DNA of 44,766 bases from Allobosea sp. (GTDB taxonomy: Bacteria; Pseudomonadota; Alphaproteobacteria; Rhizobiales; Beijerinckiaceae). The stretch's first letter is position 1. Every line of letters begins with the position of its first letter. The translations under genes were made by a program, and so were the position numbers. Positions 7,219 to 25,145 of the stretch are shown here, piece after piece. The notes under the pieces were generated by a model. The model was not told where the DNA came from, made no database searches, and worked only from the letters and a program-made list of their open reading frames with translations. The stretch spans positions 1 to 44,766 of the forward strand of contig NZ_JAUXYO010000045.1 of assembly GCF_030694325.1 (NCBI RefSeq), read 5' to 3'.

Positions 7219-8018
7219 GCGCCGTCGTCTCCCGCGAGCGGCTGACGGCAGCGGGCTCCGCCAATGCGCTGGAACTGCGCGGCGTCTCGCGGCTGTTCGG
7301 CGCGCTGGCGGCTCTGACCGACATCACGCTCTCGGTGAAGCCCGGCGAGCGGCGGGCGGTGCTGGGCTCGAACGGAGCCGGCAAGACGACGCTGTTCAAC
7401 TGCGTGACGGGCGATTTCGCGCCGAGTTCGGGCGTGATCCGCTTCTTCGGCGAAGACGTCACCGCCTTTCCGCCGCAGGAGCGCATCCGACGGGGCCTGC
7501 GCCGGACCTACCAGATCTCATCGCTCTTCACCGGGCTTTCGGTGCTCGACAACGTCTATCTCGCCTGCCGGGGCGTCTCGCGGAACCGCTTCTCGCTGCT
7601 GCGCCCGCGCCGGGACGACGCACTGGTCCAGGCAGCTGAAACCCTGGTCGAGGCGGTGCATCTCTCCGCCGTCAAGGACAGGCTGGTCGGCGAACTCGCC
7701 TATGGCCAGCAGCGCCAGCTCGAGATCGCGCTCGCCTTGTCGGGCGCGCCGCGCTTCATTCTGTTCGACGAGCCGGCGGCGGGGCTGTCGCCGACCGAGC
7801 GGCGCGACCTCGTCCACATCCTGACCTCGCTGCCGAGCCATATCGGCTACATCATCATCGAGCACGACATGGATGTGGCGCTGCGCGTCGTCGAGAGCGT
7901 GACGATGATGCACAACGGCCGCATCTTCAAGGAGGGCGCGCCGCAGGAGATCGAGAGCGACCCGGAAGTCCAGGAGCTCTATCTCGGCGGCGGACATGTC
8001 GGAGGCGGGCATGGCTGA
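7215..8018 (+). CDS. LivG-type ABC transporter ATP-binding protein
   Basis: 267 residues from the ATG that overlaps the LivM stop (ATGA). Walker A is GSNGAGKTT (51-59). The signature loop has the LivG form AYGQQRQLEIAL, Walker B is FILFDEPAAGL, and the switch histidine is in IIIEHDMD. The Q-loop region RTYQISSLFTGLSVLDNV is also typical. It energises the importer together with the LivF-like domain encoded next, whose gene starts inside this one's last codons. Confidence 0.94.
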   Translation: MSAVVSRERLTAAGSANALELRGVSRLFGALAALTDITLSVKPGERRAVLGSNGAGKTTLFNCVTGDFAPSSGVIRFFGEDVTAFPPQERIRRGLRRTYQISSLFTGLSVLDNVYLACRGVSRNRFSLLRPRRDDALVQAAETLVEAVHLSAVKDRLVGELAYGQQRQLEIALALSGAPRFILFDEPAAGLSPTERRDLVHILTSLPSHIGYIIIEHDMDVALRVVESVTMMHNGRIFKEGAPQEIESDPEVQELYLGGGHVGGGHG

Positions 8019-10254
8019 GCGCCTCAAGGCCCCGCCCGGCGTCGGCGTGCCGATCCTCCAGATCGCCGGCCTCAACGTGTTCTATGGGCGCTCCCATGCG
8101 CTGCAGGGCGTCGACCTCACCCTCCAGAGCGGCGTGCTCTCGGTGGTCGGCCGCAACGGCATGGGCAAGACGACCATGTGCAAGGCGATCATGGGGCTGG
8201 TGCCGGTCAGCTCCGGCTCGATCCGCTTCTTCGGCGAGGAGATCGCGGGGCGCAGCCCGGCCGAGATCGCGCGGCTCGGCATCGGCTATGTGCCGCAGGG
8301 GCGTCGGCTCTGGCGCTCGCTCACGGTCGACGAGCATCTGCGGCTGATGCAGCGCTCCAAGCGCGGGGCCTGGACGCCGGAACGGATCTACGAGGCCTTC
8401 CCGCGGCTGGCGGAGCGCCGCAACAATGGCGGCGCGCAGCTTTCGGGCGGCGAACAGCAGATGCTGGCGATCAGCCGGGCGCTGCTGATGAATCCGCGCC
8501 TGCTGATCATGGACGAGCCGACGGAGGGGCTCGCGCCGGTCATCGTCGCCCATGTCGAGGAGATGCTGGTGCGTCTCGCCGATCAGGGCGACGTGGCCAT
8601 CCTCGTCATCGAACAGAATATCGGCGTCGCGACCGAAATGTCGGACCCGGTCGCCATCATGGTCAATGGCCGGATCAACCGCATCATCGCCTCCGCGACG
8701 CTGGCCGGCGACCGCGACCTGCAGCAGCGCCTGCTGGGCGTCGGCCGGCACAGCCACGACGAAACCGATGGCGCACCCGAACCCGCGGAGACGTCGGAGA
8801 GCGGGACGGTCCCTGCCCCGCCGAGCGGTCCGATGCGGGTCTACAACGCCAATCCGGTCATGCCGACGCGCTGGTCGCAGCCCGTCCCGGCGGCGCGGAT
8901 CGAGGCGCAGGCGCGAACGATCTCGCGCCCGACGCTGGCGACGCGCGACGGCGCCCGGGTCGCGGACGGCCGGCGCCATGCGCCCTCGGGCAGCGGCGAG
9001 CCGCATGTCGTCGTCGTCGGCACGCTCGACACCAAGGGTGAAGAGCTGCGCTTCATCCGCGATCTCGTCCAGGCCGACGGCGTGCGTGCGCGGCTCGTCG
9101 ACATCTCGACCTCGGGCCGCAGCGCCGGGGGCGACGTCACCCCGCAGGAGATCGCGCTCGCCCATCCGCGGGGCTCGACCGGCATCGCGTCCGGCGACCG
9201 CGGGGCGGCCGTGGCGGCGATGACGGAGGCGTTCAAGGCCTGGCTGCCGCGCCAGCAGGGCGTTCTCGGCGTGATCTCGGCCGGCGGCTCGGGGGCGACC
9301 GCGATGGTGACGCCCGCGATGCAGGCCCTGCCGATCGGCCTGCCGAAGCTGATGATCTCGACCATGGCTTCGGGCGATGTCGCTGCTTATGTCGGCGCCG
9401 CCGACATCACCATGATGCCTGCCGTCACCGATGTGCAGGGGATCAACCGGGTCTCGCGGCTGGTGCTCGGAAACGGGGCGCGGGCAATGGCCGCCATGGC
9501 CAAAGCGCGGCTGGCGGAGCTGACCAGGCCCGCGACGACGCGGCGCACCGAGCCCGAAAAGCCGCTCGTCGGGCTCACCATGTTCGGTGTGACGACGCCT
9601 TGCGTGCAGCAGGTCTCGCGGCTGCTGGAGGCCGACTGGGAGCCGCTCGTCTTCCATGCCACCGGCACGGGCGGGCGGGCGCTGGAGAAGCTGGTCGATT
9701 CCGGGCTGGTCGGCGCCATCATCGACGTTTCGACCACCGAGATCTGCGACATGATGATGGGCGGCTTCCTGCCGGCGACGGAGGACCGCTTCGGCGCGAT
9801 CATCCGCACGCGCATCCCCAATGTCGGTTCCGTCGGCGCGCTCGACATGGTCAATTTCTTCGCGCCGGAGACGGTGCCGGAGCGCTATCGCGGCCGCAAT
9901 CTCTACCCGCACAACCCGCAGATCACGCTGATGCGAACGACGGCGGACGAGAATGCGCGGATGGGGCGGTGGATCGGCGAGCGGCTGAACCTGATGGAGG
10001 GGCCGGTGCGCTTCCTCCTGCCCGAGCGCGGCGTGTCGGCGCTCGATGCGCCCGGCCAGCCGTTCCATGACCCCGCTGCCGACGCCGCCCTGTTCCAGGC
10101 GCTGGAGCAGACCGTGCGGCAGACGCCGACGCGGCGGCTGATCCGCTGTCCCCATCACATCAACGACCCGGCCTTCGCGGCCGCCCTCGTGCAGCAGTTC
10201 CGCACGCTGCATGCCGGGCGCCGGCGCGAGCGGGCCAATGGAGGCCGGGCATGA
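8011..10254 (+). CDS. LivF-type ABC ATPase fused to a Tm-1-like/UPF0261 domain
   Basis: Preferred start is the ATG at 8011 (747 aa), five bases after GGAGG; an in-frame ATG at 7996 is possible. Residues 1 to about 245 are a LivF ATPase: Walker [10 protein letters not shown] (47-55), signature [16 protein letters not shown], Walker [12 protein letters not shown] and VIEQN. After a polar Pro/Glu-rich linker, residues from about 330 to 735 form a full UPF0261 (Tm-1-like ATP-binding) domain: [58 protein letters not shown] and the ending [18 protein letters not shown]0261 proteins are usually separate and sit next to a PEP-hydrolase-family gene, as happens here. No stop or frameshift separates the halves, so this is a true fusion. 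The function of the second domain is unknown. Confidence 0.9.
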
Positions 10255-10272
10255 GCACCTCTGCAACCGTTC

Positions 10273-10355
10273 CGTCATTGCGAGCGCAGCGAAGCCAGCC
10301 AGGGGCGGCAGCGCTCGACGTCCCCCTGGATGGCTTCGCTGCGCTCGCAATGACG
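10273..10355. repeat. Palindromic intergenic repeat, GTCATTGCGAG type
   Basis: Perfect 25-bp inverted repeats (10273-10297 and 10331-10355), beginning CGTCATTGCGAGCG and ending CGCTCGCAATGACG, enclose a 33-bp loop. It occupies the gap between the fusion gene and the PEP-hydrolase-family gene. Sequences of this kind are dispersed REP-like elements in many Proteobacteria. In RNA it would form a strong hairpin inside the operon transcript. Confidence 0.8.
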
Positions 10356-10396
10356 GCGAGACAATCGCGCCGCTTCATCGATGGGGAACCGAGCGC

Positions 10397-11290
10397 ATGA
10401 CGTTCGACAAGAAGAGCCTGCTGAAGCGCTTCCGGACGATGGTGAAGGCGGGCGAGCCGATCGTCGGCGGCGGCGCGGGCACCGGGCTTTCCGCAAAATG
10501 CGAGGAGGCCGGCGGGATCGACCTCATCGTCATCTACAATTCCGGCCGCTACCGCATGGCCGGCCGCGGCTCGCTGTCGGGCATGATGCCCTATGGCGAC
10601 GCCAATGCGATCGTCATGGAGATGGCGGCGGAGGTGCTGCCCGTGGTGAAGGCCACCCCGGTGATCGCCGGTGTCTGCGGCACCGATCCGTTCCGCCGGA
10701 TGGACGTCTTCCTCGACGAGGTCGCGCGGATCGGCTTCGCCGGCGTGCAGAACTTCCCGACCGTCGGGCTGATCGACGGCGTCTTCCGCAAGAACCTCGA
10801 AGAGACCGGCATGGGCTACGGCCTCGAGGTCGAGATGATCCGTCTCGCCAACGCCAAAGGCCTGCTGACGACGCCTTACGTCTTCTGCGAGGCGGATGCG
10901 CGCGCCATGGCCGAGGCCGGAGCCGACATCATCGTCTGCCATCTCGGGTTGACCATGGGCGGCGCGATCGGCGCCGAGACGGCGCTCAAGCTCGCCGACT
11001 GCCCGGCGCTGGTCGATGCCTGGGCCGCCGCCGCGCTCGCGGTCAAGAAGGACGCGCTCATCCTCGTGCATGGCGGCCCGGTCGCCGAGCCGGCGGATGC
11101 CGACTTCATCATGAAGCACACGCAGCACTGCCACGGCTTCTACGGGGCGTCCTCGATGGAGCGCCTGCCGGTCGAGGTCGCGATCCGCGACCAGACGCGG
11201 GCCTTCAAGCGCATAGGGCGGGCGGGTGGAGCCAGCAAGGCGAAGGCGACAAAGCCGGCGCGCAAGACCGGCAAGGCAGCAAAGCCATGA
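10397..11290 (+). CDS. Phosphoenolpyruvate hydrolase family (TIM-barrel) protein
   Basis: 297 residues from the ATG of [12 protein letters not shown], placed just after the intergenic repeat; the longer frame upstream reads through that repeat. The sequence fits the predicted TIM-barrel PEP_hydrolase/IGPS-like family: [86 protein letters not shown] and [12 protein letters not shown]. Members sit beside Tm-1-like/UPF0261 proteins, which here are fused to LivF directly upstream. Biochemical function of the pair is not established. The last 25 residues are a Lys/Ala-rich tail ([18 protein letters not shown]) not expected for the core fold. Confidence 0.88.
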
Positions 11291-11474: not shown

Positions 11475-14378
11475 ATGACGGGACAGCTGATCGGATCGCT
11501 GATCCTCTGGCTGATCGTGGCGGTGATCGTCATCGCCATTGTCGTCTATCTGGTGAACTGGCTGTATCGGCGCTCGTCGAAGGAGGTCTCCTTCGTCCGT
11601 ACCGGCCTGTTCGGCGAGCGGGTGGTGATCAATGGCGGCGCCTTCGTGCTGCCGATCATCCATGACGTCACGCCCGTCAACATGAACGTGCTGCAGCTCG
11701 CGGTGACGCGCGCCAGCAACGATGCGCTGATCACGCGCGACCGGATGCGCGTCGACATCGACGCGGAATTCTATGTCCGCGTGAAGCCGGAGCGGGATTC
11801 CGTCTCCATCGCCGCCGCGACGCTGGGCCGCCGCACGCTCCAGCCCGACCAGCTCCACGCGCTTCTCTCCGGCAAGTTCATCTCGGCGCTGCGCACCGTC
11901 GCCTCCGAAATGACGATGGAGGAGATGCATGAGCAGCGCGGGATGTATGTCCAGCGCGTCAAGGAAGCGGCCGCCGAAGCGCTCGATCAGAACGGCCTGC
12001 TGCTGGAGTCGGTCGCGCTCACCGACCTCGACCAGACCGACCTGCAGTATTTCAACCCGTCGAACCGCTTCGACGCCGCCGGCCTGACGCGGATCATCGA
12101 GGAGATCGAGGACAAGCGGAAGCTGCGCAACGACATCGAGCAGGACTCGATGATCCGCATCCGCACCCGCAATCTCGAGGCGGAGCGCCAGGCGCTCGAC
12201 ATCGAGCGCGACAGCGAGGCGGCGCGGCTCGAACAGCAGCGCGAGATCGAGATCAAGCGCGCCGTGCAGCGCGCCGAGGTGGCGCGCGAGCGCGCCGCGC
12301 GCGACACCGAAGCCGAGCAGGCGCAGATCCTCGCCCGCGAGGAGATCGAGAAGTCGCGCATCTCCAACGAGCGCGCGATCAGCGAGGCGCGCATCGCCTC
12401 CGAACGCGACATCCGCCAGCAGGAGATCGCGCGCACGCAGGCCGTGGAAGAGGCCGAGATCGCCTCGCGCGAGCTGATCGAGAAGGCCCGCATCGCCAAT
12501 GAGCAGGCGATCAGCGCGGCGCGAATCGCCTCCGAGCGCGACATCCGCCAGAAGGAAATCGAGCGCGCGCAGACGCTCGAAGCCGCCGAGATCGCGGCGC
12601 GGGAGGCGACCGAGAAGGCGCGCATCCTGCAGGAAACCGCGATCAGCGCCGAGCGCATCATCCGTGAGCAGGAGATCCGCAACCGCGAGATCGAACGCAC
12701 CCGCATGCTCGACCAGGAGGACATCGCCGCGCGGGAGGCGGTCGACACCGCCCGCATCGGCCAGGAGGAGCGCGTCCGCGCCCTCGGCATCGCCCGCAAC
12801 CGCGCCCTCGACGAGGCCGAGATCGCCGCCCGAGAGGCGGTCGAGAAGGCCCGCATCGCCCAGGAGAACGTGCTGACGGCCGAGCGCATCGCGCTCGATC
12901 AGCGCAAGCGCCTGCTGGAGATCGAGCAGACCGAAACGATCGAGGCGGCCGAGATCGCGGCGCGCGAGAGCGTCGAGAAGGCGCGCATCAGCCAGGAGCG
13001 GACGGTCGCCAGCGAGCGCATCCGCCGCGACGAAGAGGTCCGCAATCTCGAGATCGCCCGCAACCAGGCGATCGATACCGCCGAGATCGCCGCCCGAGAG
13101 GCAACGGAAGCCGCGCGCATCGCCCAGGAGAAGGTCGTCGCCGCCGAACGGATCGCGGCGGAACTCGCCACGAAGGAGCTGGAGATCCGCCGCAACGCCG
13201 ATCTCGACTCAGCCGAGCTGAAGCGCCGCGACACCGTCGAGCGCCAGCGCATCGCCACCGAACTCAAACTGGACGAGGAGCGCATCGACGCGGTCAAGTC
13301 GCGCGAGATGCTGCAGATCGCCCAGAAGAAGGCGGTCGAGGTCGCGGAAGAAGATCGCGCCATCGTGCTCGCCGCCAAGCGGGTCGAGCGCACCGACGCC
13401 GACAGCGCGCTGCGCCAGGCCGAGATCGCCGCGAAGCAGCAGGTCGAGTCCGTCGACATCGTCCGCGAGCAGGCGCTCGAGGCCGCCCGGATCGAGCGCC
13501 GGCGTGCGCTGGAGCAGCTCGAGATCGCCCGGACGCAGGCGCTGCAGGAAGCGCAGATCGCCTCCAACGAGGAGGTCGAGCGGGCGCGCATCTCGTCGGA
13601 CCGCGGGCTCGACGAAGCCCGTGTCGGGCGCCAGCGCGAGCTGCGCAAGCTGGAGATCGCCCGCGAGCGCGATGTCGAGGCGGCCGCCATGGACAAGGCG
13701 ATCGCGCTCTACACCAAGTCCCTGGAGGAATCCGCCGCCCAGGCCAATGCCGAGAGCGCCCGCGCCAAGGCTGTCGAGGCCGAGGAACAGGTCAAGACCA
13801 TCCGAGAGAGCGAAGGCGCCAAGCGTCGCAAGACGGTCGAGGTGTTGCTCGCCGAGAAGGCGGCGGAGGAATCCAACATCGCCGCCGCGGCCGACAAGGT
13901 GCGCCGCACCGTCGAGGCCGAGGCCCAGAAGCTGCTCTACGAGGCCGAGAACGTGCTCAGCGACGGCGCCCGCTACGGGCTGTTCCGGCGCCGCCTGCTC
14001 GACAAGATCGAGGGCATTGTGCGCGAGAGCGTCAAGCCGATGGAGAAGATCGAGGGCATCCGCATCCTCCATGTCGACGGGCTCGCCGGGATCGGTGGCA
14101 GTGGCGGCGGGGTCGGCGGTGCCGCCCGCTCGCCGACCGACGAGGTCATCGAGTCGGCGCTGCGCTACCGCGTCCAGGCGCCGATGATCGACCAGGTGCT
14201 GAAGGAGATCGGCATCGAGGGCGGCAACCTCGCCAAGATGGGCGGGCTGATGCGCGAGGCTTCCGACATGCAGCGCGTCGCCAAGGATGCCCAGCCGGCG
14301 AAGCCGAAGGGCAGCGGCGATACGAAGGCCGGTGGTGAGGGCCCTGCCCCCGAAGCCGGCCCCGGCAAGACCTCCTGA
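11475..14378 (+). CDS. SPFH/flotillin-like membrane protein with a very long repetitive coiled coil
   Basis: 967 residues. A single membrane segment lies at about residues 5-27 (IGSLILWLIVAVIVIAIVVY). An SPFH/Band-7 domain follows, roughly 35-200 (GERVVINGGAFVLPIIHDVTPVNMNVL, ITRDRMRVDIDAEFYVRV, LSGKFISALRTVASEMTMEEM). Residues about 210-860 are an uninterrupted charged coiled coil rich in EIAAREA, ARIAQE and AERI motifs, including six tandem units of about 44 residues. The end has a glycine patch (GIGGSGGGVGGAA), a short globular region and a Pro/Gly/Lys tail. Flotillins scaffold membrane microdomains; typical bacterial ones are 500-700 residues. It lies inside the transporter/hydroxylase gene block, only 12 bp before the next gene, so a role in assembling that system at the membrane is possible but unproven. 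Confidence 0.88.
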   Translation: MTGQLIGSLILWLIVAVIVIAIVVYLVNWLYRRSSKEVSFVRTGLFGERVVINGGAFVLPIIHDVTPVNMNVLQLAVTRASNDALITRDRMRVDIDAEFYVRVKPERDSVSIAAATLGRRTLQPDQLHALLSGKFISALRTVASEMTMEEMHEQRGMYVQRVKEAAAEALDQNGLLLESVALTDLDQTDLQYFNPSNRFDAAGLTRIIEEIEDKRKLRNDIEQDSMIRIRTRNLEAERQALDIERDSEAARLEQQREIEIKRAVQRAEVARERAARDTEAEQAQILAREEIEKSRISNERAISEARIASERDIRQQEIARTQAVEEAEIASRELIEKARIANEQAISAARIASERDIRQKEIERAQTLEAAEIAAREATEKARILQETAISAERIIREQEIRNREIERTRMLDQEDIAAREAVDTARIGQEERVRALGIARNRALDEAEIAAREAVEKARIAQENVLTAERIALDQRKRLLEIEQTETIEAAEIAARESVEKARISQERTVASERIRRDEEVRNLEIARNQAIDTAEIAAREATEAARIAQEKVVAAERIAAELATKELEIRRNADLDSAELKRRDTVERQRIATELKLDEERIDAVKSREMLQIAQKKAVEVAEEDRAIVLAAKRVERTDADSALRQAEIAAKQQVESVDIVREQALEAARIERRRALEQLEIARTQALQEAQIASNEEVERARISSDRGLDEARVGRQRELRKLEIARERDVEAAAMDKAIALYTKSLEESAAQANAESARAKAVEAEEQVKTIRESEGAKRRKTVEVLLAEKAAEESNIAAAADKVRRTVEAEAQKLLYEAENVLSDGARYGLFRRRLLDKIEGIVRESVKPMEKIEGIRILHVDGLAGIGGSGGGVGGAARSPTDEVIESALRYRVQAPMIDQVLKEIGIEGGNLAKMGGLMREASDMQRVAKDAQPAKPKGSGDTKAGGEGPAPEAGPGKTS
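12336..13094 (+). repeat. Tandem 132-bp coding repeats (44-residue, four-hendecad units) in the SPFH gene
   Basis: Residues 288-540 of the SPFH protein break into units beginning RExxEKxRI: 288-331, 332-375, 376-419, 420-452, 453-496 and 497-540. All are 44 residues except the fourth, which is 33 and lacks one 11-residue block. Each unit is four 11-residue hendecads, for example REEIEKSRISN / ERAISEARIAS / ERDIRQQEIAR / TQAVEEAEIAS. A degenerate seventh unit follows. The DNA repeats are diverged. Confidence 0.8.
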
Positions 14379-14390
14379 GGCTTAAAGCTC

Positions 14391-14828
14391 ATGGCCCGCG
14401 TCTACGTCTCCAGCGTCATCTCCGCCCCCGCCGCCAAGGTCTGGGCCCGCGTGCGCGATTTCAACGGCCTGCCGAACTGGCATCCGCGCATCGCCGAAAG
14501 CCGGATCGAAAACGGCGAGCCCGCCGACAAGGTCGGCTGCATCCGCGCCTTCTCGCTGCGCAGCGGCGATCGCCTGCGCGAGCAGCTGCTGGGTCTCTCC
14601 GACTACGACATGTTCTGCACCTATTCGATCCTGGATTCGCCGATGCCGCTGACGAACTACGTCGCGACGCTGCGGCTGACGCCGATCACCGACCAGGAGC
14701 GCACCTTCATCGAATGGTCGGCCGATTTCGACTGCGCGCCGGAGCGCGAGGCGGAACTGGTCGAGGGCATCGGCACCAACGTCTTCCAGGGCGGATTCGA
14801 CGCCCTCAAGCGCGCATTCGGGGGATGA
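14391..14828 (+). CDS. SRPBCC (CoxG/START-like) family protein, first of tandem pair
   Basis: 145 residues with the SRPBCC hydrophobic-pocket fold. The opening VYVSSVISAPAAKVWARVRDFNGLPNWHPRIAES is the common polyketide-cyclase/CoxG start, and the long C-terminal helix is EAELVEGIGTNVFQGGFDALK. CoxG-type proteins occur in carbon monoxide dehydrogenase-like clusters, where they are linked to enzyme maturation or membrane attachment. This gene sits directly before the hydroxylase subunit genes, 3 bp from a second copy of the same family. A lipid- or substrate-binding role is the alternative. Confidence 0.82.
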   Translation: MARVYVSSVISAPAAKVWARVRDFNGLPNWHPRIAESRIENGEPADKVGCIRAFSLRSGDRLREQLLGLSDYDMFCTYSILDSPMPLTNYVATLRLTPITDQERTFIEWSADFDCAPEREAELVEGIGTNVFQGGFDALKRAFGG

Positions 14829-14831
14829 GGC

Positions 14832-15284
14832 ATGCCTCACGTCGTCCGCAGCACGATCATCGACGCGCCCGTCGACCTGCTCTGGTCGGTGCTGCGCGAC
14901 TTCAACGGCCATGACCGCTGGCACCCGATCGTCGCGAGGAGCGAGATCGAGCGCGGCCACCCGTCCGACAGGATCGGCTGCGTGCGCCGGTTCTGGCTGC
15001 AGGACGGTAGTGAATTGCGCGAGCAGCTCCTCACGCTCTCGGACCTCGAAATGACCTTCAGCTACTGCCTGCTGGACACGCCGATCCCGCTCTTCAACTA
15101 CGTCGCCCATGTCCGGCTTTTACCGGTGACCGACGGCAACCGCGCCTTCTGGCACTGGGAGAGCCGCTTCACCACGCCGCGAGGCCGCGAGGCGGAACTG
15201 GCGCGCATCGTCGGCGACGAGGTCTACACCAACGGCATCGAGGCGGTTCGCCGCCTGCCGGAACTCGCGCGGGAGGCGGTCTGA
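14832..15284 (+). CDS. SRPBCC (CoxG/START-like) family protein, second of tandem pair
   Basis: 150 residues, clearly paralogous to the preceding gene. Shared features are ...IDAPVDLLWSVLRDFNGHDRWHPIVARSEIE, IGCVRRFWLQDGSELREQLLTLSD, YCLLDTPIPLFNYVA and the C-terminal helix. The ATG follows GATGAGGC and is 3 bp after the previous stop. The next gene starts 1 bp after its stop, so it is tightly coupled to the FAD subunit. The two copies have diverged substantially, suggesting different partners or ligands rather than a recent duplication. Confidence 0.82.
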   Translation: MPHVVRSTIIDAPVDLLWSVLRDFNGHDRWHPIVARSEIERGHPSDRIGCVRRFWLQDGSELREQLLTLSDLEMTFSYCLLDTPIPLFNYVAHVRLLPVTDGNRAFWHWESRFTTPRGREAELARIVGDEVYTNGIEAVRRLPELAREAV

Positions 15285-15285
15285 C

Positions 15286-16107
15286 ATGCTGGCTGTGAGA
15301 AGCTGCGCGACGCTGTCAGAAGCCGCCAGCATCCTGTCCGGAGACCGGCAGGCGGTGCTGGTCGGCGGCGGCACGCTGGTGATGCGCGACGTCAATGAGG
15401 GCCGGCTGACCGAGGGCACGCTGCTGCGCGTCACCGATCCGGCCTTCCGGCGGATCGAGGCCCATGGGGCCCGCATCGAGCTCGGCGGCGGAGTCACGAT
15501 GGGTCAGATCCTGGCCAGCCGCGAGCTCGCCTTCCTGCACGCTCCAGCGCGTGCGATCGGCGGCCCCGCCGTGCGCAACATGGCGAGCGTCGGCGGCAAT
15601 CTCTTCGCACCCACGCCTTACGGCGATTTCACCGTGGCGCTGCTCGCGCTCGATGCGCAGGTCGTGGTGCAGTCCGGCTTCGGCAGCGGGCGGGCAACGC
15701 CGCTGGAGGAGTTCCTGGCGGCCCGAGAACGGATGGGGTCGGCGCTGGTCGGCGCGATCCAGTTTTCGCGACCGCCCAATCCGGCCGATTTCCACTTCCG
15801 CAAGATCAGCCGGATCAAGCCGAAGGGGATTTCGGTGCTGTCGATCGCAGCGCATCTTCCGCTGGCCGGCGGGCGGGTGAGCCAGGCGCGGGTGGCTTAT
15901 GGCGCGATGGCGCCGATGCCGGTCCGCGCGCGCGGCGTCGAGCGGGTGCTGGACGGCAAGGCGCTCGATGCCGCGGCCATCGCCGCGGCGAAACAGGCGG
16001 CGCTCGAAGGCTGCCGTCCCGCGACCGATGCGATCGCCAGCGAATGGTATCGCCGCGAGGTGCTGCCCGTTCATCTCGGCCGGCTGCTTGCCGGCGAGCC
16101 CCGCTGA
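15286..16107 (+). CDS. FAD-binding (medium) subunit of a CO dehydrogenase/xanthine dehydrogenase-type hydroxylase
   Basis: 273 residues of the CoxM/CutM/NdhF family. The two FAD-binding signatures are VLVGGGTLVMRD near residue 25 and RNMASVGGNLFAPTPYGD near 100. The C-terminal CO_deh_flav_C domain is seen in FRKISRIKPKGISVLSIAAHLPL and the later AYGAMAPMPVRARGVERVLDG. It passes electrons from the 2Fe-2S subunit to an acceptor. A GGGAGG ribosome site precedes the ATG. Order FAD, FeS, Mo subunit resembles cox and heterocycle-hydroxylase operons. Length is near the usual 270-290. Confidence 0.92.
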   Translation: MLAVRSCATLSEAASILSGDRQAVLVGGGTLVMRDVNEGRLTEGTLLRVTDPAFRRIEAHGARIELGGGVTMGQILASRELAFLHAPARAIGGPAVRNMASVGGNLFAPTPYGDFTVALLALDAQVVVQSGFGSGRATPLEEFLAARERMGSALVGAIQFSRPPNPADFHFRKISRIKPKGISVLSIAAHLPLAGGRVSQARVAYGAMAPMPVRARGVERVLDGKALDAAAIAAAKQAALEGCRPATDAIASEWYRREVLPVHLGRLLAGEPR

Positions 16108-16117
16108 GGAGCGCGCC

Positions 16118-16600
16118 ATGGCCAAGATTCCCGTCCAGTTTCGCCTCAACGGCACCGACCGCGCTGCCTTCGTCGATGCGCCGGAGACGCTGCTCAACAC
16201 GCTGCGCCGGAGCCTGGGCGACTTCGCCCCGAAATATGGCTGCGGCCAGGGCGCCTGCGGCGTCTGCACCGTGCTGATCGACGGCGAGCCGTATCTCTCC
16301 TGCCTGACCCTCTCAGTGGCCTGCGAGGGCCGGCAGGTCGAGACGGCCTCGGGCATGGCCGATGGACCCGATCTGCACCCTTTGCAGGCGCAGTTCATGG
16401 AGCATTTCGCCGCGCAGTGCGGGTTCTGCACGCCGGGCATGCTGACCGCGGGGCGCGCGCTGCTCGACCGGAACCCCAACCCCACCCGCGACGAGGTGAT
16501 CGAGGCGATCAGCGGCAACATCTGTCGCTGCACCGGCTACGAGCCCATCGTCGCCGCAATCCTCGCCGCCGCCGGCCCTCAAAGCGTGAGACGGGCATGA
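16118..16600 (+). CDS. 2Fe-2S (small) subunit of the molybdenum hydroxylase
   Basis: 160 residues from the ATG of MAKIPVQFRLNG, preceded by GAGGAG. All eight cluster ligands are present. The plant-ferredoxin-type set is C42, C47, C50 and C62 (CGQGACGVC...C) and the C-terminal set is C101, C104, C136 and C138 (CGFC, CRC). The protein matches CoxS/NdhS-type subunits in length and relays electrons from the Mo cofactor to FAD. Nothing is unusual in the sequence. It ends before an intergenic repeat that separates it from the Mo subunit gene. Confidence 0.94.
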   Translation: MAKIPVQFRLNGTDRAAFVDAPETLLNTLRRSLGDFAPKYGCGQGACGVCTVLIDGEPYLSCLTLSVACEGRQVETASGMADGPDLHPLQAQFMEHFAAQCGFCTPGMLTAGRALLDRNPNPTRDEVIEAISGNICRCTGYEPIVAAILAAAGPQSVRRA

Positions 16601-16622: not shown

Positions 16623-16770
16623 CGCGCCGTCATCCCGGCCAAGCCGCCCCCGGGTCCTGCCTTCGGCAGGCCCGAGGACAGGCTCCACGGCGCAGAGCCG
16701 GGATCCATGCCTGAGCCGTTCCGGAATGGATCCCGGGTCTTCGCTTCGCTGCGCCCGGGATGACGGCGCG
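16623..16770. repeat. Palindromic intergenic repeat, GTCATCCCGG type
   Basis: Outer arms CGCGCCGTCATCCCGG (16623-16638) and its perfect reverse complement (16755-16770). An inner perfect pair CCGGGATCCAT (16698-16708) / ATGGATCCCGG (16726-16736) lies inside. It sits between the 2Fe-2S and Mo subunit genes. Same family as 29553-29646. Confidence 0.8.
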
Positions 16771-16802: not shown

Positions 16803-18563
16803 ATGCTAGAACTCCGCAAGGACCTCTTCGCCGATGAGCGCGACGACAACCTCAACGTCGTCGGCAAAGGCATCCAGCGTCAGGATATGCCCGGCCACGT
16901 CACCGGGCTGACGCGTTATTTCGACGACCATGCGTTCGACGGCATGCTGCATCTCAAGGTGGTGCGCAGCCCCCATGCCAGCGCCCGCATCCGCTCGATC
17001 GACGTCGCGGCCGCAGCGCGCGCGCCGGGCGTCAAGCGCGTGCTGCGCGCCGCCGACGTGCCGGTGAACAAGAATACGCTGCTCAGCCTGATCAATTTCG
17101 GCAAGGACGACGAGCCCTCGCTGGCGGTCGACAAGGTCCACTATGTGGGCGAGCCGGTCGTCGCGATCATTGCCGAAAGCGAGGCGCAGGCGCTGGCCGC
17201 CAAGGCGCTGGTGCGCATCGACTATGAACCGATGCCGGCCGTCTTCGATGTCGAGGAGGCGCTGAAGCCCGGCGCGCCGGTCGTCAACGAGACCTATCCG
17301 GCGAATTATTTCGAATACCACGAGCGCTTCGACCACCAGAAGCTGCGCTTCGGCGATGTCGAGCGCGCCTTCGGCTCGGCCGACATGGTGCTGGAGCACC
17401 GCTACCAGATGTCGCCGATCGAGCATGCGCCGACCGAGACCAACGGCTCGATCGCCGCACCCGAGCAGAACGGCCGCTTCGTCGTCCATTCCTGCGCGCA
17501 GGGGCTGTTCTTCGCGCTCGGCACGACGGCGAAGATCGTCGCGGTCGAGTCCAACCGCCTGCATTTCATCGGCGGCACGGTCGGCGGCGGCTTCGGCGGC
17601 AAGGTCGACTCGCTGACCGAGCCGCTGGCCGTGCTGGGCGCGATGGTGACGGGGCGGCCCGTCCGCTTCGTGCTCGATCGCGAGGAGGAGATGCTCTACG
17701 GCTCGCCGCGCGGAGCCGAGCGCATCTACATCAAGGACGGGCTGATGCGCGACGGGCGCATCGTCGCCCGCCAGATCCGCAGCTATTTCGACGCCGGCGC
17801 CTATACGCGGCTGTCGAGCTACGCCGCGATCAAGTGCACCGCGCATCTGCCGGGACCGTACTGGATCCCCAACGTCGCCTCCGACGTCCATGTCGCCTAC
17901 ACCAATCGCTGCCCCTCGACCGCCATGCGCGGCTTCGGCATTACGGCGGTGGATTTCGCGCTGGAGGTCCAGATGGACCGGCTCGCCGAAGCGGCCGCCA
18001 TGGACCCGATGGAGTTCCGGATCCTCAACGCCTATCGCGACGGGGATATGAAGCCGCATCGGCGCAAGGCCTCGAACACGGCGCTGATCGAATGCGTCCA
18101 GGTCGCAGCCGGGAAGGCGAACTGGCCGATCTCGGAGCAGGGCAAGCGGCAATCCTCGCTGACAGGCGGCGGCGACGGCGAGCGGGGGCAGATTCCGGCG
18201 ACCGTGCTCGATGCGCGCGGCCAGATCGGACGGCCCGACACACGGCAATCCGGCCCGACACAGACCCTGCCGGCCGGCACCTCGCGCATCGCGCCGAGCA
18301 AGCAGCCGGTGATGGAGGGCGCCCGCGATGGCCGCGCAACGCCGACGCAGGTGCCGCGCTACGAGGCGGCCCGGCCGACGGCGCAGCCGCTGGCACCTGC
18401 GGCGTATGCTCCGCCGCCCTCGCCCTACCAGCCGGTGGCGGGCCAACAGCCCCCGCCCTATCAGCCGCCCCCGGCGCCGCCCTCGCCCGCCCCGTCGACT
18501 CCGACCCAGACCCAGCATGGCGCGGTGCGCTTCTCATCCGTCTTCGGCACGAGGAGGCGCTGA
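16803..18563 (+). CDS. Molybdopterin-binding large subunit, N-terminal half, with Pro-rich tail
   Basis: 586 residues. Residues about 15-140 are the aldehyde oxidase/xanthine dehydrogenase a/b hammerhead domain (KGIQRQDMPGHVTGLTRYFDDH, VRSPHASARIRSIDV, VDKVHYVGEPVVAIIAES). Residues about 150-440 are the first Mo-cofactor domain, with GGGFGGK (261-267) and the Mo-site loop AMRGFG (374-379; Arg376). The homology stops near residue 440. The remaining 145 residues are a low-complexity tail, very Pro/Gln-rich (for example AYAPPPSPYQPV, PPYQPPPAPPSP), ending FGTRRR. The second Mo domain is encoded by the next gene. The second-domain catalytic glutamate is therefore absent here. Active enzyme needs both polypeptides. 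Substrate class is probably an N-heterocycle or aldehyde rather than CO, because the CO dehydrogenase CSFR loop is absent. Confidence 0.88.
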   Translation: MLELRKDLFADERDDNLNVVGKGIQRQDMPGHVTGLTRYFDDHAFDGMLHLKVVRSPHASARIRSIDVAAAARAPGVKRVLRAADVPVNKNTLLSLINFGKDDEPSLAVDKVHYVGEPVVAIIAESEAQALAAKALVRIDYEPMPAVFDVEEALKPGAPVVNETYPANYFEYHERFDHQKLRFGDVERAFGSADMVLEHRYQMSPIEHAPTETNGSIAAPEQNGRFVVHSCAQGLFFALGTTAKIVAVESNRLHFIGGTVGGGFGGKVDSLTEPLAVLGAMVTGRPVRFVLDREEEMLYGSPRGAERIYIKDGLMRDGRIVARQIRSYFDAGAYTRLSSYAAIKCTAHLPGPYWIPNVASDVHVAYTNRCPSTAMRGFGITAVDFALEVQMDRLAEAAAMDPMEFRILNAYRDGDMKPHRRKASNTALIECVQVAAGKANWPISEQGKRQSSLTGGGDGERGQIPATVLDARGQIGRPDTRQSGPTQTLPAGTSRIAPSKQPVMEGARDGRATPTQVPRYEAARPTAQPLAPAAYAPPPSPYQPVAGQQPPPYQPPPAPPSPAPSTPTQTQHGAVRFSSVFGTRRR

Positions 18564-18564
18564 C

Positions 18565-19608
18565 ATGGCCCGTCACGAAGGTCGCGGCATGGCGTCGGTG
18601 AACTACCCGATCGGGATGAATCTCGGGGGTGATCCGAGCCAGGCGCTGATCCATTCAAACCCCGACGGCAAGTTCACCGTCGCGCTCTCGGCGATCGATC
18701 TCGGCCAGGGCATGAAGCAGGTCTCGCGGCAGATCGCGGCGGAGACGCTCGGCGTGCCGGTCGAGGACGTCTATGTCGACACCGCCGACAGCGACACCGG
18801 CCCCCATGACATGGGCTCGTTTGCCTCGCGCGGCACGCATCGCATGGGCAACGCCATCATCGTCGCGGCGCGCGAGGCGCGCGGCGTGCTGCTGGAGGCT
18901 GCGGCCGAGGAGCTCGAGGTCGATGCCGGCGACCTCGTCACCGATGGGCGCGGCAACATCCATGTCCGCGGTGCGCCCTCGCGCTCGATCACGGTCAAGG
19001 CCACCGCCCAGGCGGCGCAGTTCAAGCAGGGCAAGACCATTGCCGGGCGCGGCATCTTCCTGATCCCGCTTTCGGCCGTCGATGCCGAGACCGGCGAGAT
19101 GAACCCCAACACCGCCTTCGCTCATGCCTGCCTCGTGGCCGATGTCGCGGTGGACGACGAGACCGGCGAGGTCGAGGTGCTCCGAATGACCAGCGCCTAT
19201 GAGCTCGGCCGGGTGATCAATCCGCGCATGGTCGAGCAGCAACTCGTTGGCGGGGCCTGGATGGGCATGAGCCACGCGCTCTACGAAACGCCCGAGCCCT
19301 ATTACCCAGACCCGGCCCACGGCCCGCGCGACTTCAACGAGTATCTGATGCCGGGGCCGGGCGAGATCGCGCCCTATCATGTCACGGTGCTGGAGCGCCC
19401 GGCGCCGGACGGACCCTATGGCGGCAAAGGGCCCGGCGAGATGTGCGCCAATCCGGTCCTGCCGGCGATTGCCAACGCCGTCTACAACGCGGTCGGCGTG
19501 CGCGTCGACGAGCTGCCGATCACGCCCGAGAAGATTCTGCGCGGTCTCAAGGCCAATGGCGGGGTCAAGCCCGGCCCGCGCCGCGGCGGCCCCGTGAACT
19601 GGCGGTGA
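18565..19608 (+). CDS. Molybdopterin-binding large subunit, C-terminal half
   Basis: 347 residues, starting at an ATG one base after the stop of the N-terminal half and in a different frame. It begins MARHEGRGMASVNYPIGMN, exactly where the second Mo-cofactor domain starts in full-length homologues. It carries LGQGMKQVSRQIAAETLG (Gln48) and the catalytic glutamate in GGKGPGEM (Glu292). Other family landmarks are EVEVLRMTSAYELGRVINPRMVEQQLVGG and PITPEKILRGL. With the previous gene it makes one complete active site. No signal peptide, so cytoplasmic. A natural split gene is favoured over a frameshift, because no frame in 18130-18563 encodes family-like sequence. Confidence 0.88.
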   Translation: MARHEGRGMASVNYPIGMNLGGDPSQALIHSNPDGKFTVALSAIDLGQGMKQVSRQIAAETLGVPVEDVYVDTADSDTGPHDMGSFASRGTHRMGNAIIVAAREARGVLLEAAAEELEVDAGDLVTDGRGNIHVRGAPSRSITVKATAQAAQFKQGKTIAGRGIFLIPLSAVDAETGEMNPNTAFAHACLVADVAVDDETGEVEVLRMTSAYELGRVINPRMVEQQLVGGAWMGMSHALYETPEPYYPDPAHGPRDFNEYLMPGPGEIAPYHVTVLERPAPDGPYGGKGPGEMCANPVLPAIANAVYNAVGVRVDELPITPEKILRGLKANGGVKPGPRRGGPVNWR

Positions 19609-19612
19609 TCGC

Positions 19613-20497
19613 ATGGCGCTGCGCACCACCGTCGCCGGAATCTCGAGCCCCGAGGACCTCGCGCAGGCCCTCACGGGCGCGATGTATCTCGCCGATGACG
19701 GCATCGCTACCGCCGGCTATCTTTCGCTCGCGCTCGGCAAGCCGCTGCTGCTCGAGGGCGCGCCCGGCGTCGGCAAGACCGAGGCCGCCAAGGCGATCGC
19801 CGGGATCCTCGGGCGCCAGCTGATCCGGCTGCAATGCTTCGAGGGCATCGACGCGTCAGCCGCGCTCTACGAGTGGAACTATCCGCGCCAGATGTTGGCC
19901 ATCAGGCAAGCCCGCGAAGGGGAAACGCTCGACATCTATCGCGACGATTTCCTGATCGAGCGGCCGATGCTGACGGCGCTGCGGCGGCCAGAGTCGACCG
20001 TGCTGCTGATCGACGAAATCGACCGCTCGGACCATGAATTCGAGGCCTTCCTGCTCGAATTCCTGTCCGATTTCTCGATCTCGATCCCCGAGCGCGGCAC
20101 CCTGCGCGCCGCCGAGCGGCCGGTCGTGGTGCTGACATCCAACCGCACCCGCGAGCTGCACGAGGCGCTGCGGCGCCGCTGCGTCTATCACTACATCCCC
20201 TATCCGGAGCCCGAGCGGGAGGCGCAGATCATCATGCTGCGTTCTTCCGCCGTCGCGGAGGGCACGGCGCGCGCCGTCGTGCACGCTATCGGGCTCCTGC
20301 GGCAGGAGCCGCTGGCCAAGCCACCGGGCGTAGCGGAAGCCGTCGACTGGGCGGAGGCCGCGACCGCTCTCGCCCAGGCCGGCGCGCCCTGGCCGGAGGC
20401 GTTCCGCCGGTCGCTAGGCGCTGCGATCAAGGACGAGGAGGATTTCGTCCACCTACGCCCCCGCCTGCCGCTGATCATTCCGGGGCTGGCGGCATGA
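19613..20497 (+). CDS. MoxR-family AAA+ ATPase (CoxD-like)
   Basis: 294 residues. Walker A is GAPGVGKT (49-56), Walker B is VLLIDEIDR near 130, and the sensor/arginine region is VVVLTSNRTRELHEALRRRC. CoxD and other MoxR ATPases act with VWA partners to mature cofactor-containing enzymes. In CO dehydrogenase clusters CoxD is needed to build the active Mo site. Here it follows the Mo subunit by 4 bp and precedes a VWA gene, the expected chaperone pair. Length matches the family. Confidence 0.92.
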   Translation: MALRTTVAGISSPEDLAQALTGAMYLADDGIATAGYLSLALGKPLLLEGAPGVGKTEAAKAIAGILGRQLIRLQCFEGIDASAALYEWNYPRQMLAIRQAREGETLDIYRDDFLIERPMLTALRRPESTVLLIDEIDRSDHEFEAFLLEFLSDFSISIPERGTLRAAERPVVVLTSNRTRELHEALRRRCVYHYIPYPEPEREAQIIMLRSSAVAEGTARAVVHAIGLLRQEPLAKPPGVAEAVDWAEAATALAQAGAPWPEAFRRSLGAAIKDEEDFVHLRPRLPLIIPGLAA

Positions 20498-20628: not shown

Positions 20629-20654
20629 GCGGAGTGTGAGCCGGAGGGTTGGCC

Positions 20655-21767
20655 ATGATCGCCCCCCTCCCCGCCGCCGCGCGCCTGTTCGTCGCCTTCC
20701 CGACGCTGATGCGTGGGCATGGCTTCTCGGTCGCGCCCGAGCAGACGACGAGCTTCTTGATGGCGGTCGAGCTGCTGGGTCCGCGCAGCATCGAGCACAT
20801 CCGCAAGGCTGCGGTGGCGACGCTCGCGCCCCATCCCGAACAGCGCGAGCTGTTCGATGCGCTGTTCGACCTGCACTTCCTCGGTGCCATCGCAGAGCCC
20901 GGCGACGAGGATTTCGCGCCCGACGAGGAGATGGCGGTGCAGGAGGATTCCGGCTCGCGCGAGATCCTGGTCGGCGAAGAGGTCAACGAGACCGGACAGG
21001 CCGCGACCGGGGCGGAAGCGCTGTCCGTTCGCGCCCTGCAACCGCTGGACGAGAGCGAGACCCTGCGGCGCTTCGCCCGGGCGCTGCCGGCCGCCCTGCC
21101 CCGCCGCCGCGGCTATCGCCATCGCGGCGCGAGGCGCGGGCCCAGCGTCGATCTCGCCCGCAGCCTGCGCGCCGCGATCCGCCATGACGGCGAGGTGATG
21201 AGCCTGAAGAAGCTCAGGCGTGTGACGCGGCCGCGCCCCATCCTGCTGATGATCGACGTCTCCGGCTCGATGAAGCAGCGCAGCGATGCCAATCTCGCCC
21301 TCGCGCATGCGATCGTGCAGGCGACGCCGCGGGTCGAGGTCTTCACCTTCGGCACACGGCTGACGCGGGTGACGCGCGCGCTGCGCCGCAAGCGCCGCGA
21401 ACAGGCGCTGGCCGAGGCGTCGGGGCTCGTCGCCGACTGGGATGGCGGCACCCGGATCGGTGACGCACTGCAGGCCTTCCTCGCCGTGCCGCGCTTCGCC
21501 TCCTATGCGCGCGGCGCGGTCGTCGTGGTGCTGTCGGACGGGCTGGAGCGCGGCGATCCGGCGGCGCTGGTCTCGGCGGTCGCAAGGCTGGCCGCCCGGG
21601 CCCACCGTCTCGACTGGCTGACGCCGCTCGCCGCCGAACCCGGCTACCGACCCGAAACCGAGGCGCTGCGGCTGATCGCGCCGCAACTCGCCAGCCTCGG
21701 CAACGGCGCCAGCACGGCGCGGATCTGCCGGCACATCCTTTCGCTCGGAGGCTCGACCGCGGCATGA
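20655..21767 (+). CDS. VWA domain protein (CoxE-like)
   Basis: 370 residues from the ATG of MIAPLPAAARLF, which follows GGAGGG by six bases; a TTG six bases upstream is less likely. The C-terminal half is a von Willebrand factor A domain with the MIDAS motif DVSGS (Asp201, Ser203, Ser205), then FTFGTRLTRVTRAL, WDGGTRIGDAL and VVVLSDGLERGDP. The N-terminal half is acidic in the middle (GDEDFAPDEEMAVQEDSGSREI) and ends in a basic stretch (LPRRRGYRHRGARRG). CoxE-type VWA proteins partner MoxR ATPases in Mo-enzyme maturation. It overlaps the following amidohydrolase by ATGA. Confidence 0.9.
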   Translation: MIAPLPAAARLFVAFPTLMRGHGFSVAPEQTTSFLMAVELLGPRSIEHIRKAAVATLAPHPEQRELFDALFDLHFLGAIAEPGDEDFAPDEEMAVQEDSGSREILVGEEVNETGQAATGAEALSVRALQPLDESETLRRFARALPAALPRRRGYRHRGARRGPSVDLARSLRAAIRHDGEVMSLKKLRRVTRPRPILLMIDVSGSMKQRSDANLALAHAIVQATPRVEVFTFGTRLTRVTRALRRKRREQALAEASGLVADWDGGTRIGDALQAFLAVPRFASYARGAVVVVLSDGLERGDPAALVSAVARLAARAHRLDWLTPLAAEPGYRPETEALRLIAPQLASLGNGASTARICRHILSLGGSTAA

Positions 21768-23522: not shown

Positions 23523-25145
23523 ATGACAACACACGTCGCCGTCCGCCCCGCCTTCGCCGACCTCGTCGATCTCTGGGCGCCGGTGCGCCAGCTCGGCACC
23601 GGCTTCGAATTCTGCGAAGGTCCGATCTGGCATCCGCGCGAGCAGCATCTGCTGTTCTCCGACATGCCGGGGGATGTGCGCCGACGCTGGGACGCATCCG
23701 GCGTGCGCGAGGTCCGGCGGCCGGCGAACAAATGCAACGGCATGACCTATGACGCGGACCTCGACCTGATCGTCTGCGAGCACGCGACCTCGTCGCTGAT
23801 CCGCGAGCGGCCGGATGGCCGACGCGAGGTGCTGGCCTCGCATTTCGAGGGGCAGGAGCTCAACAGCCCCAACGATGTCGTGGTGAAGTCGGACGGGGCG
23901 ATCTATTTCTCCGACCCCTGGTATGGCCGGATGCCGGTTTTCGGCGTCGAGCGGCCGCGGCAGCTGGGTTTCCAGGGCGTCTACCGGATACCTCCGGGTC
24001 GGGGCGAGCCGCAGCTCCTGGTCGACCGCTATCTCTTCGACCAGCCCAACGGACTGTGCTTCTGCCCGACCGAGGACCGGCTTTTCGTCAACGACACCGT
24101 GCAGCACAATATCCGCGTCTTTCCGATCCTGCCCGACGGGCGGCTCGGACCGGGCCGTGTCTTCGCCTCCGGCATCGTCTCGGCGAGCGAGCCCGGCGTG
24201 CCCGACGGCATGAAATGCGATGCGCAGGGCAATCTCTGGGTCTGCGGCCCCGGCGGCGTCTGGGTCTACACGATCAGGGGCGAGCTGATCGGCAAGCTGC
24301 GCGTGCCGGAACTCGTCGGCAACCTCACCTGGGGCGGGCCGGACTGGCGCACGCTGTTCCTGACCGCGACGCACTCGCTCTATGCCGTCGAGACCAAGGT
24401 CGGCCCGCAGATGGAGCCGTACATGAAGGCTGGCGGCCAGGCCGGTCGCACTGCCCAAAGCGGCTCTTCGCCGCCGCCTGTCTCGGGCGTCACGCCGGCC
24501 GCAACGATCGCCGCCAGCGGCGCGAAGAAGGCCGCATCAGGCTACCGGCTCGATCCGGCGCGCTGCGCGCTGATCATTCAGGACATGCAGAACGACGTCG
24601 TGATGGAGGGCGGCGCCTTCGCCTCGTCGGGCTCGCCGGAGCATTGCAAGCAGCAGAACGCGATCGCCAACGCGTCGAAGCTCGCGCAGGCGGCCCGGGC
24701 GCGCGGCATCCCGGTGATCCATGTCTGGTTTGTGGTCGAGCCGGGAGCGCCGGGCATGACCATGAATGCGCCGCTGTTCGAGGGGCTGGCCGACGCCAAA
24801 GCCCTGGTGCGCGGGACCTGGGGCTGCGCCGCCGTACCGGGCCTCGAGGCGCAGGCCGGCGACCATGTCGTCGAGAAATGCCGCATGAGCGCCTGGGAGG
24901 GAACGCGGCTGGAAACCGTGCTCAAGGCGCTCGGCCGCGACGTCGTCATCGTCACCGGAGCCTGGACCAACATGTCGATCGAGCACACGGCGCGCACCGG
25001 CGCCGACAAGGGCTACTTCATGCTCGTGCCGGAGGACGCCTGTTCGACCATGAACGCCGAATGGCACACGGCCTCGGTGAACTACGCGCTCCAGAACGTC
25101 GCGGTGGTCACCGATGTCGATGCGGTCATAGCGGCCACGACCTGA
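23523..25145 (+). CDS. SMP-30/gluconolactonase domain fused to an isochorismatase-like hydrolase domain
   Basis: 540 residues with two enzyme domains in one frame. Residues 1 to about 300 are an SMP-30 beta propeller: FEFCEGPIWHPREQHLLFSD, LNSPNDVVVKSDGAIYFSDPWYG, QPNGLCFCPTEDRLFVND and GVPDGMKCDAQGNLWVCGPGG, keeping the metal-binding Glu, Asn and Asp pattern. A Gly/Ser/Ala linker (about 305-340) leads to a cysteine-hydrolase-like domain. In that domain Asp354 (IIQDMQND) and Lys452 (VVEKCRMSAW) are kept, but the usual catalytic Cys is Ser485 (GAWTNMSIEHTAR). EntB and PhzD-type isochorismatases also lack this Cys. Likely successive lactone and amide/ether hydrolysis; substrate unknown. It ends the plus-strand block. 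Confidence 0.88.
   Translation: MTTHVAVRPAFADLVDLWAPVRQLGTGFEFCEGPIWHPREQHLLFSDMPGDVRRRWDASGVREVRRPANKCNGMTYDADLDLIVCEHATSSLIRERPDGRREVLASHFEGQELNSPNDVVVKSDGAIYFSDPWYGRMPVFGVERPRQLGFQGVYRIPPGRGEPQLLVDRYLFDQPNGLCFCPTEDRLFVNDTVQHNIRVFPILPDGRLGPGRVFASGIVSASEPGVPDGMKCDAQGNLWVCGPGGVWVYTIRGELIGKLRVPELVGNLTWGGPDWRTLFLTATHSLYAVETKVGPQMEPYMKAGGQAGRTAQSGSSPPPVSGVTPAATIAASGAKKAASGYRLDPARCALIIQDMQNDVVMEGGAFASSGSPEHCKQQNAIANASKLAQAARARGIPVIHVWFVVEPGAPGMTMNAPLFEGLADAKALVRGTWGCAAVPGLEAQAGDHVVEKCRMSAWEGTRLETVLKALGRDVVIVTGAWTNMSIEHTARTGADKGYFMLVPEDACSTMNAEWHTASVNYALQNVAVVTDVDAVIAATT

Follow-up and report, generated by a model that had tools for sequence, protein, structure and literature searches.

The closest described relative of the soil-bacterial enzyme considered here is nicotinate dehydrogenase of Eubacterium barkeri, which is said, in the title of one study (Wagener 2009), to be a molybdenum-selenium enzyme. 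Its molybdenum (Mo) part is divided between two chains, NdhL and NdhM, which are accompanied by a flavin (FAD) and an iron-sulfur (FeS) component (PDB 3hrd), and the same names for the Mo subunits are used in a further article (PMC8305194). Two other described systems are useful for comparison: carbon monoxide (CO) dehydrogenase of Oligotropha carboxidovorans (CoxMSL with CoxDEFG), in which the Mo subunit CoxL is one chain, and 4-hydroxybenzoyl-CoA reductase (PDB 1rm6), in which the alpha subunit is a single chain of 769 amino acids (aa). The DNA analyzed here is a stretch of 44,766 nucleotides from Allobosea sp. (contig NZ_JAUXYO010000045.1), which we refer to at its full length as the window. 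It encodes a Mo hydroxylase whose large subunit is split into two proteins, here called L1 and L2, and L1 carries a long C-terminal tail. The split itself, which falls between the Mo-cofactor domains, is of the already known nicotinate dehydrogenase type; the tail is the part that appears to be new, and its near-invariant tip is a putative docking peptide.

The L1 gene (16803-18563, 586 aa) ends with a TGA at 18561-18563, and after a gap of one base the ATG of L2 follows at 18565 in another frame, as given by translation and the listing of open reading frames (ORFs). L1 carries GGGFGGK at residues 261-267 and AMRGFG at residues 374-379, while L2 carries GQG at residues 47-49 and a GKGPGE loop (of the GxGE type) that ends at Glu292, which we take to be the catalytic glutamate. 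Pfam places Ald_Xan_dh_C (34-144) and MoCoBD_1 (178-409) on L1 and MoCoBD_2 (5-266) on L2. A preliminary description of the sequence had proposed an active site divided in this manner, a break between the two Mo-cofactor domains, and a stop and start one base apart in different frames, and all three proposals agree with the motifs, domains, and coordinates. It had also proposed an enzyme of four subunits. The hammerhead, MoCoBD_1, MoCoBD_2, FAD, and [2Fe-2S] domains all lie above their Pfam cut-offs and are spread over four separate genes, and the natural reading is indeed a four-subunit Mo hydroxylase (FAD, FeS, L1, L2) of the xanthine oxidase superfamily, presumably located in the cytoplasm.

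Comparisons with known enzymes point to the same type of split. The best PDB match of L1 is the large Mo subunit of nicotinate dehydrogenase (3hrd_A, 1.7e-57, chain of 425 aa) and that of L2 is the medium Mo subunit (3hrd_B, 6.3e-47, chain of 330 aa), while 4-hydroxybenzoyl-CoA reductase is the second PDB relative of L2 (2.3e-43) and the third of L1 (1.7e-45). NdhL, with its 425 aa, has no tail comparable to that of L1, and its loop reads AFRGFG rather than AMRGFG. The NCBIfam equivalog models for xanthine dehydrogenase, 4-hydroxybenzoyl-CoA reductase, PaoC, CO dehydrogenase, and glyceraldehyde dehydrogenase were not reached (L1 at best 269.5 versus 783.65 bits, L2 206.5 versus 994.55), although this test is biased against both proteins because each is of half length. 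CO dehydrogenase shares the FAD, FeS, and Mo parts and the neighboring genes for a MoxR AAA protein and a VWA protein, whereas in the window the Mo subunit is two chains and an SPFH gene is present in addition. The loop (A/S)YRCS(F/L)R, given for form I CO dehydrogenase in PMC13240472, is replaced by AMRGFG. No XdhC/CoxF-type match was found among the 19 window proteins scanned (genes up to 25145).

The split is genuine and reflects neither chance nor a frameshift, because the listed homologs are full length and no scorable locus has one frame. A protein search with L1 scored 8000 candidates and gave 5628 matches at E <= 0.001, and the 120 of these that were listed are 571-623 aa long with query coverage of 89-100%, each with RRR at its end. 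Loci were assembled from the best 80 of 386 L2 relatives and 26 further stretches (20 + 6), giving 106, or 107 with the window. Six of the 107 lack a complete L1, 91 have a complete tailed L1, and ten have an L1 without a tail; in all these counts Bosea and Bradyrhizobium are overrepresented, and near relatives are counted separately. L1 and L2 form one open frame in none of 100 scorable loci. The search for the same split and tail in other genomes, which the preliminary description had asked for, found both, and the refuting case that it named, a continuous gene lacking the tail, did not appear in these 100 loci; what exists instead is a sister clade that has the split without the tail.

The breadth of the family was assessed in two genome samples. 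In a sample of the order, a split-type match is present in 26 of 121 genomes including that of the window (E <= 2.5e-151, with the next match at 1e-84), and 20 of the other 25 supplied loci. In a class-wide sample, none of 122 genomes other than that of the window matched the L1 core at 1e-90. An L2-MoxR fusion, which had been suspected from run-on coordinates, occurs in none of 102 loci. A gene whose product has several membrane spans (EamA-like, by inspection only) separates L1 from L2 in L131 and L132, and in G035:C88 L2 gives two matches that overlap in different frames, which may reflect a frameshift of the draft assembly.

The tail can be divided by its conservation. In an alignment of the window protein with 120 homologs, the mean frequency of the majority residue is 0.85-0.95 over residues 1-450, 0.83 over 451-480, 0.78 over 481-510, 0.65 over 511-540, and 0.55 over 541-570, and then rises to 0.95 over 571-586. 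The last 16 residues, QHGAVRFSSVFGTRRR, are therefore the best-conserved section of the tail. In the ten tail-less loci, L1 stops 16-20 residues past the equivalent of window residue 440. Because these relatives end at the equivalent of residues 456-460, the true extension is about 126-130 residues; the preliminary description was right about a proline-rich tail (its linker is 35% Pro and 19% Ala) and too generous with a length of 145. In the 91 complete tailed loci, the tail counted from about window residue 441 measures between 81 and 188 aa. Near the start of the tail, R-x(1-3)-[IVM]-P is found in 77 of the 91. The composition suggests that the tail is disordered and flexible.

The tip is close to invariant. 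L1 ends in RRR in 91/91 complete tailed loci, the last 14 residues contain RF in 90 and RF[SA]S in 86, and the exact end RFSSVFGTRRR is found in 66. The five tips without RF[SA]S read RFST (L057), SRFISG (L133, L136, L137), and SRLAG (L138). Among listed proteins, all 130 of P0001-P0130 end in RRR, as against none of the 120 of P0131-P0250, which are the listed relatives of a tail-less protein; P0131 itself is identical to the protein of genome G051, with the source name Bauldia litoralis. Most Bradyrhizobium tails among L083-L125 are short, with little kept beyond a terminal HGAxRFSSVFGTRRR, and the tails of six Bradyrhizobium loci (L096, L113, L115, L120, L124, L125) are longer and end in RFSSVFTRRR. 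Docking through the PPPY-like motifs, of the kind recognized by WW domains, is not supported. PPPY occurs once in the window L1 (550-553) and PPxY occurs in just 28 of 91 tails, and therefore it is part of the variable linker.

Seven aligned single-chain relatives fill only 0-10 of 86 tail columns, which agrees with the earlier statement that ordinary members have no counterpart, although the tail is not peculiar to this genome but common to a whole alphaproteobacterial clade. When the tail alone was searched against proteins between 0.55 and 1.75 times as long as L1, 176 matched at E up to 1, and all 120 of those listed carry MoCoBD_1. Elsewhere in the genome of the window the tail has one weak match only (E 0.03), with three stops, and a search of a plasmid collection gave no match. 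A search of open-licence PMC text with narrow terms found no paper on the L1 tail or on a Mo hydroxylase with SPFH.

The gene context of tailed and tail-less loci differs. An SPFH gene lies upstream in 85/85 scorable tailed loci versus 0/9 tail-less loci, and a pair of SRPBCC genes (SRPBCC-a and SRPBCC-b) is present in 86/86 versus 0/9; two of the nine tail-less loci have a single SRPBCC gene, one ORF matching both queries. MoxR is found in 90/90 scorable tailed and 7/10 tail-less loci, VWA in 89/89 and 7/10, and an Amidohydro_2 gene in 83/84 and 9/10. A maximum-likelihood tree was built from the L1 cores of 34 tailed loci, 10 tail-less loci, and 6 outgroup rows. The branch that sets the tail-less loci apart has support of 100/100, and the one that sets the tailed loci apart has only 59/48. 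One branch divides the two groups, and therefore the co-occurrence of genes with the tail counts as one event rather than many. The outgroup branches are very long, and the change in the tail may be a gain or a loss.

A related cassette occurs with a different enzyme. The SPFH N-terminus is matched in 34 of the 121 genomes sampled from the order, and of 49 matches listed, 15 that lie away from split-enzyme loci were examined. Six of these (L158-L163) have SPFH, SRPBCC-a, and SRPBCC-b in the arrangement of the window, whereas the remaining nine lack one or both SRPBCC genes. The oxidoreductase in these six operons is an MDR-type dehydrogenase that shares one open frame with SRPBCC-b in every case, as judged by ORF spans and hit positions (Pfam agrees in 3/3 tested), and in the two translations inspected the SRPBCC-b and MDR parts are joined by a linker that contains Pro and Ala. 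All six also share the ABC/UPF0261 genes with the window operon, and four share PEP_hydrolase; no Mo-enzyme, MoxR, or VWA match was found within the stretches examined. The SPFH proteins of these operons end in Asp-rich runs and are 733-857 aa long (by ORF), versus 967 aa for that of the window, which has many degenerate coiled repeats.

We suggest, tentatively and at somewhat under even odds, that the L1 tail docks the enzyme to the SPFH/SRPBCC module of its own operon, the partner being assigned by comparison of loci. A short conserved peptide on a variable linker is what is looked for in a linear docking motif, and the tail fits; because the tip is conserved on such a linker, x-R-F-S-S-x-x-G-x-R-R-R-COOH can be read as a linear docking peptide. 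The SPFH/SRPBCC module is favored as the partner because tail-less relatives mostly keep MoxR and VWA without an SPFH and SRPBCC pair in the operon, and because SRPBCC-b is covalently joined to an oxidoreductase in the sister operons. The flexible Pro/Ala-rich arm would hold the Mo enzyme, as the oxidoreductase of the module, on an SPFH protein that might act as a membrane platform, with the two SRPBCC proteins as possible carriers of a hydrophobic substrate or quinone. Docking by the tail would then do the job of the covalent SRPBCC-MDR fusion, while MoxR and VWA would act separately. By inference from CoxD/CoxE, the latter two are likely maturation factors. A tether or docking arm had been proposed from the outset, with the SPFH, VWA, or SRPBCC ("CoxG") proteins as possible partners. 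The features of the tail suit that proposal, and the partner remains putative; SPFH agrees best with the comparative data and VWA/MoxR less well.

The CoxG label itself had to be dropped, since both SRPBCC proteins match PF10604 (SRPBCC-a also matches PF03364, under its cut-off) and neither matches a CoxG model (PF06240 in Pfam) at E <= 0.001. CoxG is described as a quinone-binding membrane protein with a proposed role in electron transfer from CO dehydrogenase to the quinone pool (PMC13240472), and O. carboxidovorans strains mutated in coxG show slower growth on CO with a regular enzyme (PMC4240915). By analogy only, this parallel backs the type of arrangement proposed here rather than an identity, as the window SRPBCC proteins belong to a different family.

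Several observations weigh against docking to the SPFH/SRPBCC module. The gene for a metallo-beta-lactamase-fold (MBL) protein follows the tail as well as SPFH does (83/84 tailed versus 0/9 tail-less loci), and MoxR and VWA are present in every scorable tailed locus too. As a single event, the co-occurrence of SPFH/SRPBCC with the tail could be a coincidence. Moreover, three of the four tail-less genomes of the order sample (G156, G123, G141) carry the SPFH cassette elsewhere, in three of the six MDR operons, and therefore SPFH follows the tail by operon and not by genome; the fourth, G051, has no SPFH match. No clear docking site emerged from the residues of the SRPBCC proteins that are specific to one group.

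Few cases are known of how cytoplasmic Mo hydroxylases get to the membrane or couple to carriers, and a near-invariant end peptide that is missing in a sister clade with the same split would provide a defined handle on enzyme placement. If the tip does bind SPFH or SRPBCC, bacterial flotillin-type proteins would gain a concrete enzymatic client, and the presence of the same cassette with two unrelated oxidoreductases would be explained. The broader idea, that a flotillin-type (SPFH) platform with paired SRPBCC carriers is interchangeable, serving a fused MDR enzyme in one operon type and an arm-tethered Mo hydroxylase in the other, is possible but on balance unlikely.

The best-placed competitor of SPFH/SRPBCC docking, though improbable, is that the tail is a handle by which the MoxR/VWA chaperone pair grips the disordered L1 C-terminus during cofactor insertion or activation. 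AAA+ machines commonly grip disordered termini, and the pair accompanies every scorable tail, but 7 of 10 tail-less split loci retain MoxR and VWA as well. CoxD and CoxE mature CO dehydrogenase (PMC4240915), but according to the same article its data call into question whether CoxD serves the apoenzyme as a chaperone. A rather less probable reading makes the tail an intersubunit strap that ties L1 to L2, or to a neighboring tetramer, after the gene split. The tail lies exactly at the split point, and its proximal stretch, which is conserved in part, might rest against the core, yet the same split occurs without a tail in ten loci and in nicotinate dehydrogenase. Direct binding of acidic membrane lipids by the basic, aromatic tip, with no protein partner, would be in keeping with its RF...RRR composition and the near-universal retention of these residues; the Ser and Gly of the tip are strongly conserved too, beyond what lipids would appear to need, and we regard this explanation as quite unlikely.

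Conservation of the L1 end solely as a ribosome binding site and coupling signal for L2 is highly improbable. Its appeal is that 65 of 91 tailed loci write the first two of the terminal Arg as AGG AGG and that L2 starts -8 to +4 nucleotides from the L1 stop in 95 of 101 loci. However, the codons of RFSSVFG vary synonymously. Where the exact tip is present (66 loci), four different codons are found for the Arg of RF (34/23/7/2), and likewise for the first Ser (22/18/14/12) and Val (38/19/7/2), and codon entropy at R, the first F, both S, V, G, and T is at least the mean of invariant core residues. It falls below that mean at the second Phe (one codon, 66/66) and at two of the three terminal Arg, namely the first, which is AGG in 62/66, and the second, which is AGG or AGA (55 and 11). 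Free synonymous change in RFSSVFG means that selection acts on the protein, while the terminal Arg codons, which form a Shine-Dalgarno-like site for L2, therefore have a double function. Five tailed loci have the start of L2 farther downstream, by 135 to 1125 nucleotides, and each of them retains the tip; L131, in which another gene lies between L1 and L2, writes RRR as CGC CGC CGC. Conversely, L2 is preceded by a purine-rich site in tail-less loci such as L126-L128, which lack the motif. A role as ribosome site alone is thus largely refuted for RFSSVFG, and for the RRR codons it holds in part. Nothing was found in favor of a frameshift from sequencing or assembly, or of gene decay, as the cause of the split, and both can practically be dismissed, given the same organization in the 100 scorable loci from many assemblies and the RRR end of all 130 listed tailed proteins.

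Features of the Mo hydroxylase operon in the window, with the basis of each assignment
Feature	Position	Strand	Basis
ABC ATPase-UPF0261 fusion, upstream cassette common to MDR operons	7996..10254	+	Pfam
PEP_hydrolase-like protein, true start uncertain; also in 4/6 MDR operons	10211..11290	+	Pfam (match from residue 70)
SPFH/flotillin protein, long coiled repeats, N-terminal hydrophobic segment (by eye)	11475..14378	+	Pfam Band_7, Flot
SRPBCC-a (PF10604)	14391..14828	+	Pfam
SRPBCC-b (PF10604); relatives fused to MDR oxidoreductase in six other operons	14832..15284	+	Pfam
FAD subunit	15286..16107	+	Pfam FAD_binding_5, CO_deh_flav_C
[2Fe-2S] subunit	16118..16600	+	Pfam Fer2, Fer2_2
L1 catalytic core, residues 1-456, hammerhead and MoCoBD_1	16803..18170	+	Pfam; core end where tail-less relatives stop
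L1 tail, proximal part, residues 457-525, partly conserved	18171..18377	+	Conservation by 30-residue blocks
L1 tail, variable Pro/Ala-rich linker, residues 526-570	18378..18512	+	Lowest conservation, 0.55-0.65
L1 C-terminal 16-residue peptide QHGAVRFSSVFGTRRR, putative docking motif	18513..18560	+	Conservation, synonymous variation
AGGAGG, codons of two terminal Arg and Shine-Dalgarno-like site for L2	18552..18557	+	Sequence, codon counts
L2, second Mo-cofactor subunit, 347 aa, MoCoBD_2, GQG, Glu292	18565..19608	+	Pfam, motifs
MoxR-type AAA ATPase, CoxD-like	19613..20497	+	AAA/AAA_5; MadB_ATPase under cut-off
VWA_CoxE protein	20649..21767	+	Pfam

Further genes lie on both sides of the enzyme genes. 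Upstream lie genes for a periplasmic binding protein, an AraC-type regulator, an ABC permease, the ABC ATPase-UPF0261 fusion, and the PEP_hydrolase-like protein. The fusion combines a transporter ATPase and both UPF0261 domains in one ORF (7996-10254), and the same fusion is present in L160. Downstream are genes for an Amidohydro_2 protein, the MBL protein, and an SMP-30/isochorismatase fusion, the last an ORF at 23523-25145 that joins an SMP-30/gluconolactonase domain to an isochorismatase domain. Between the FeS and L1 genes, inside the operon, is a palindromic repeat at 16690-16770 (arms 16690-16714/16720-16744). This repeat is dispersed, with at least 79 matches on both strands in the genome of the window, its own copy included (40 of 248 candidates scored).

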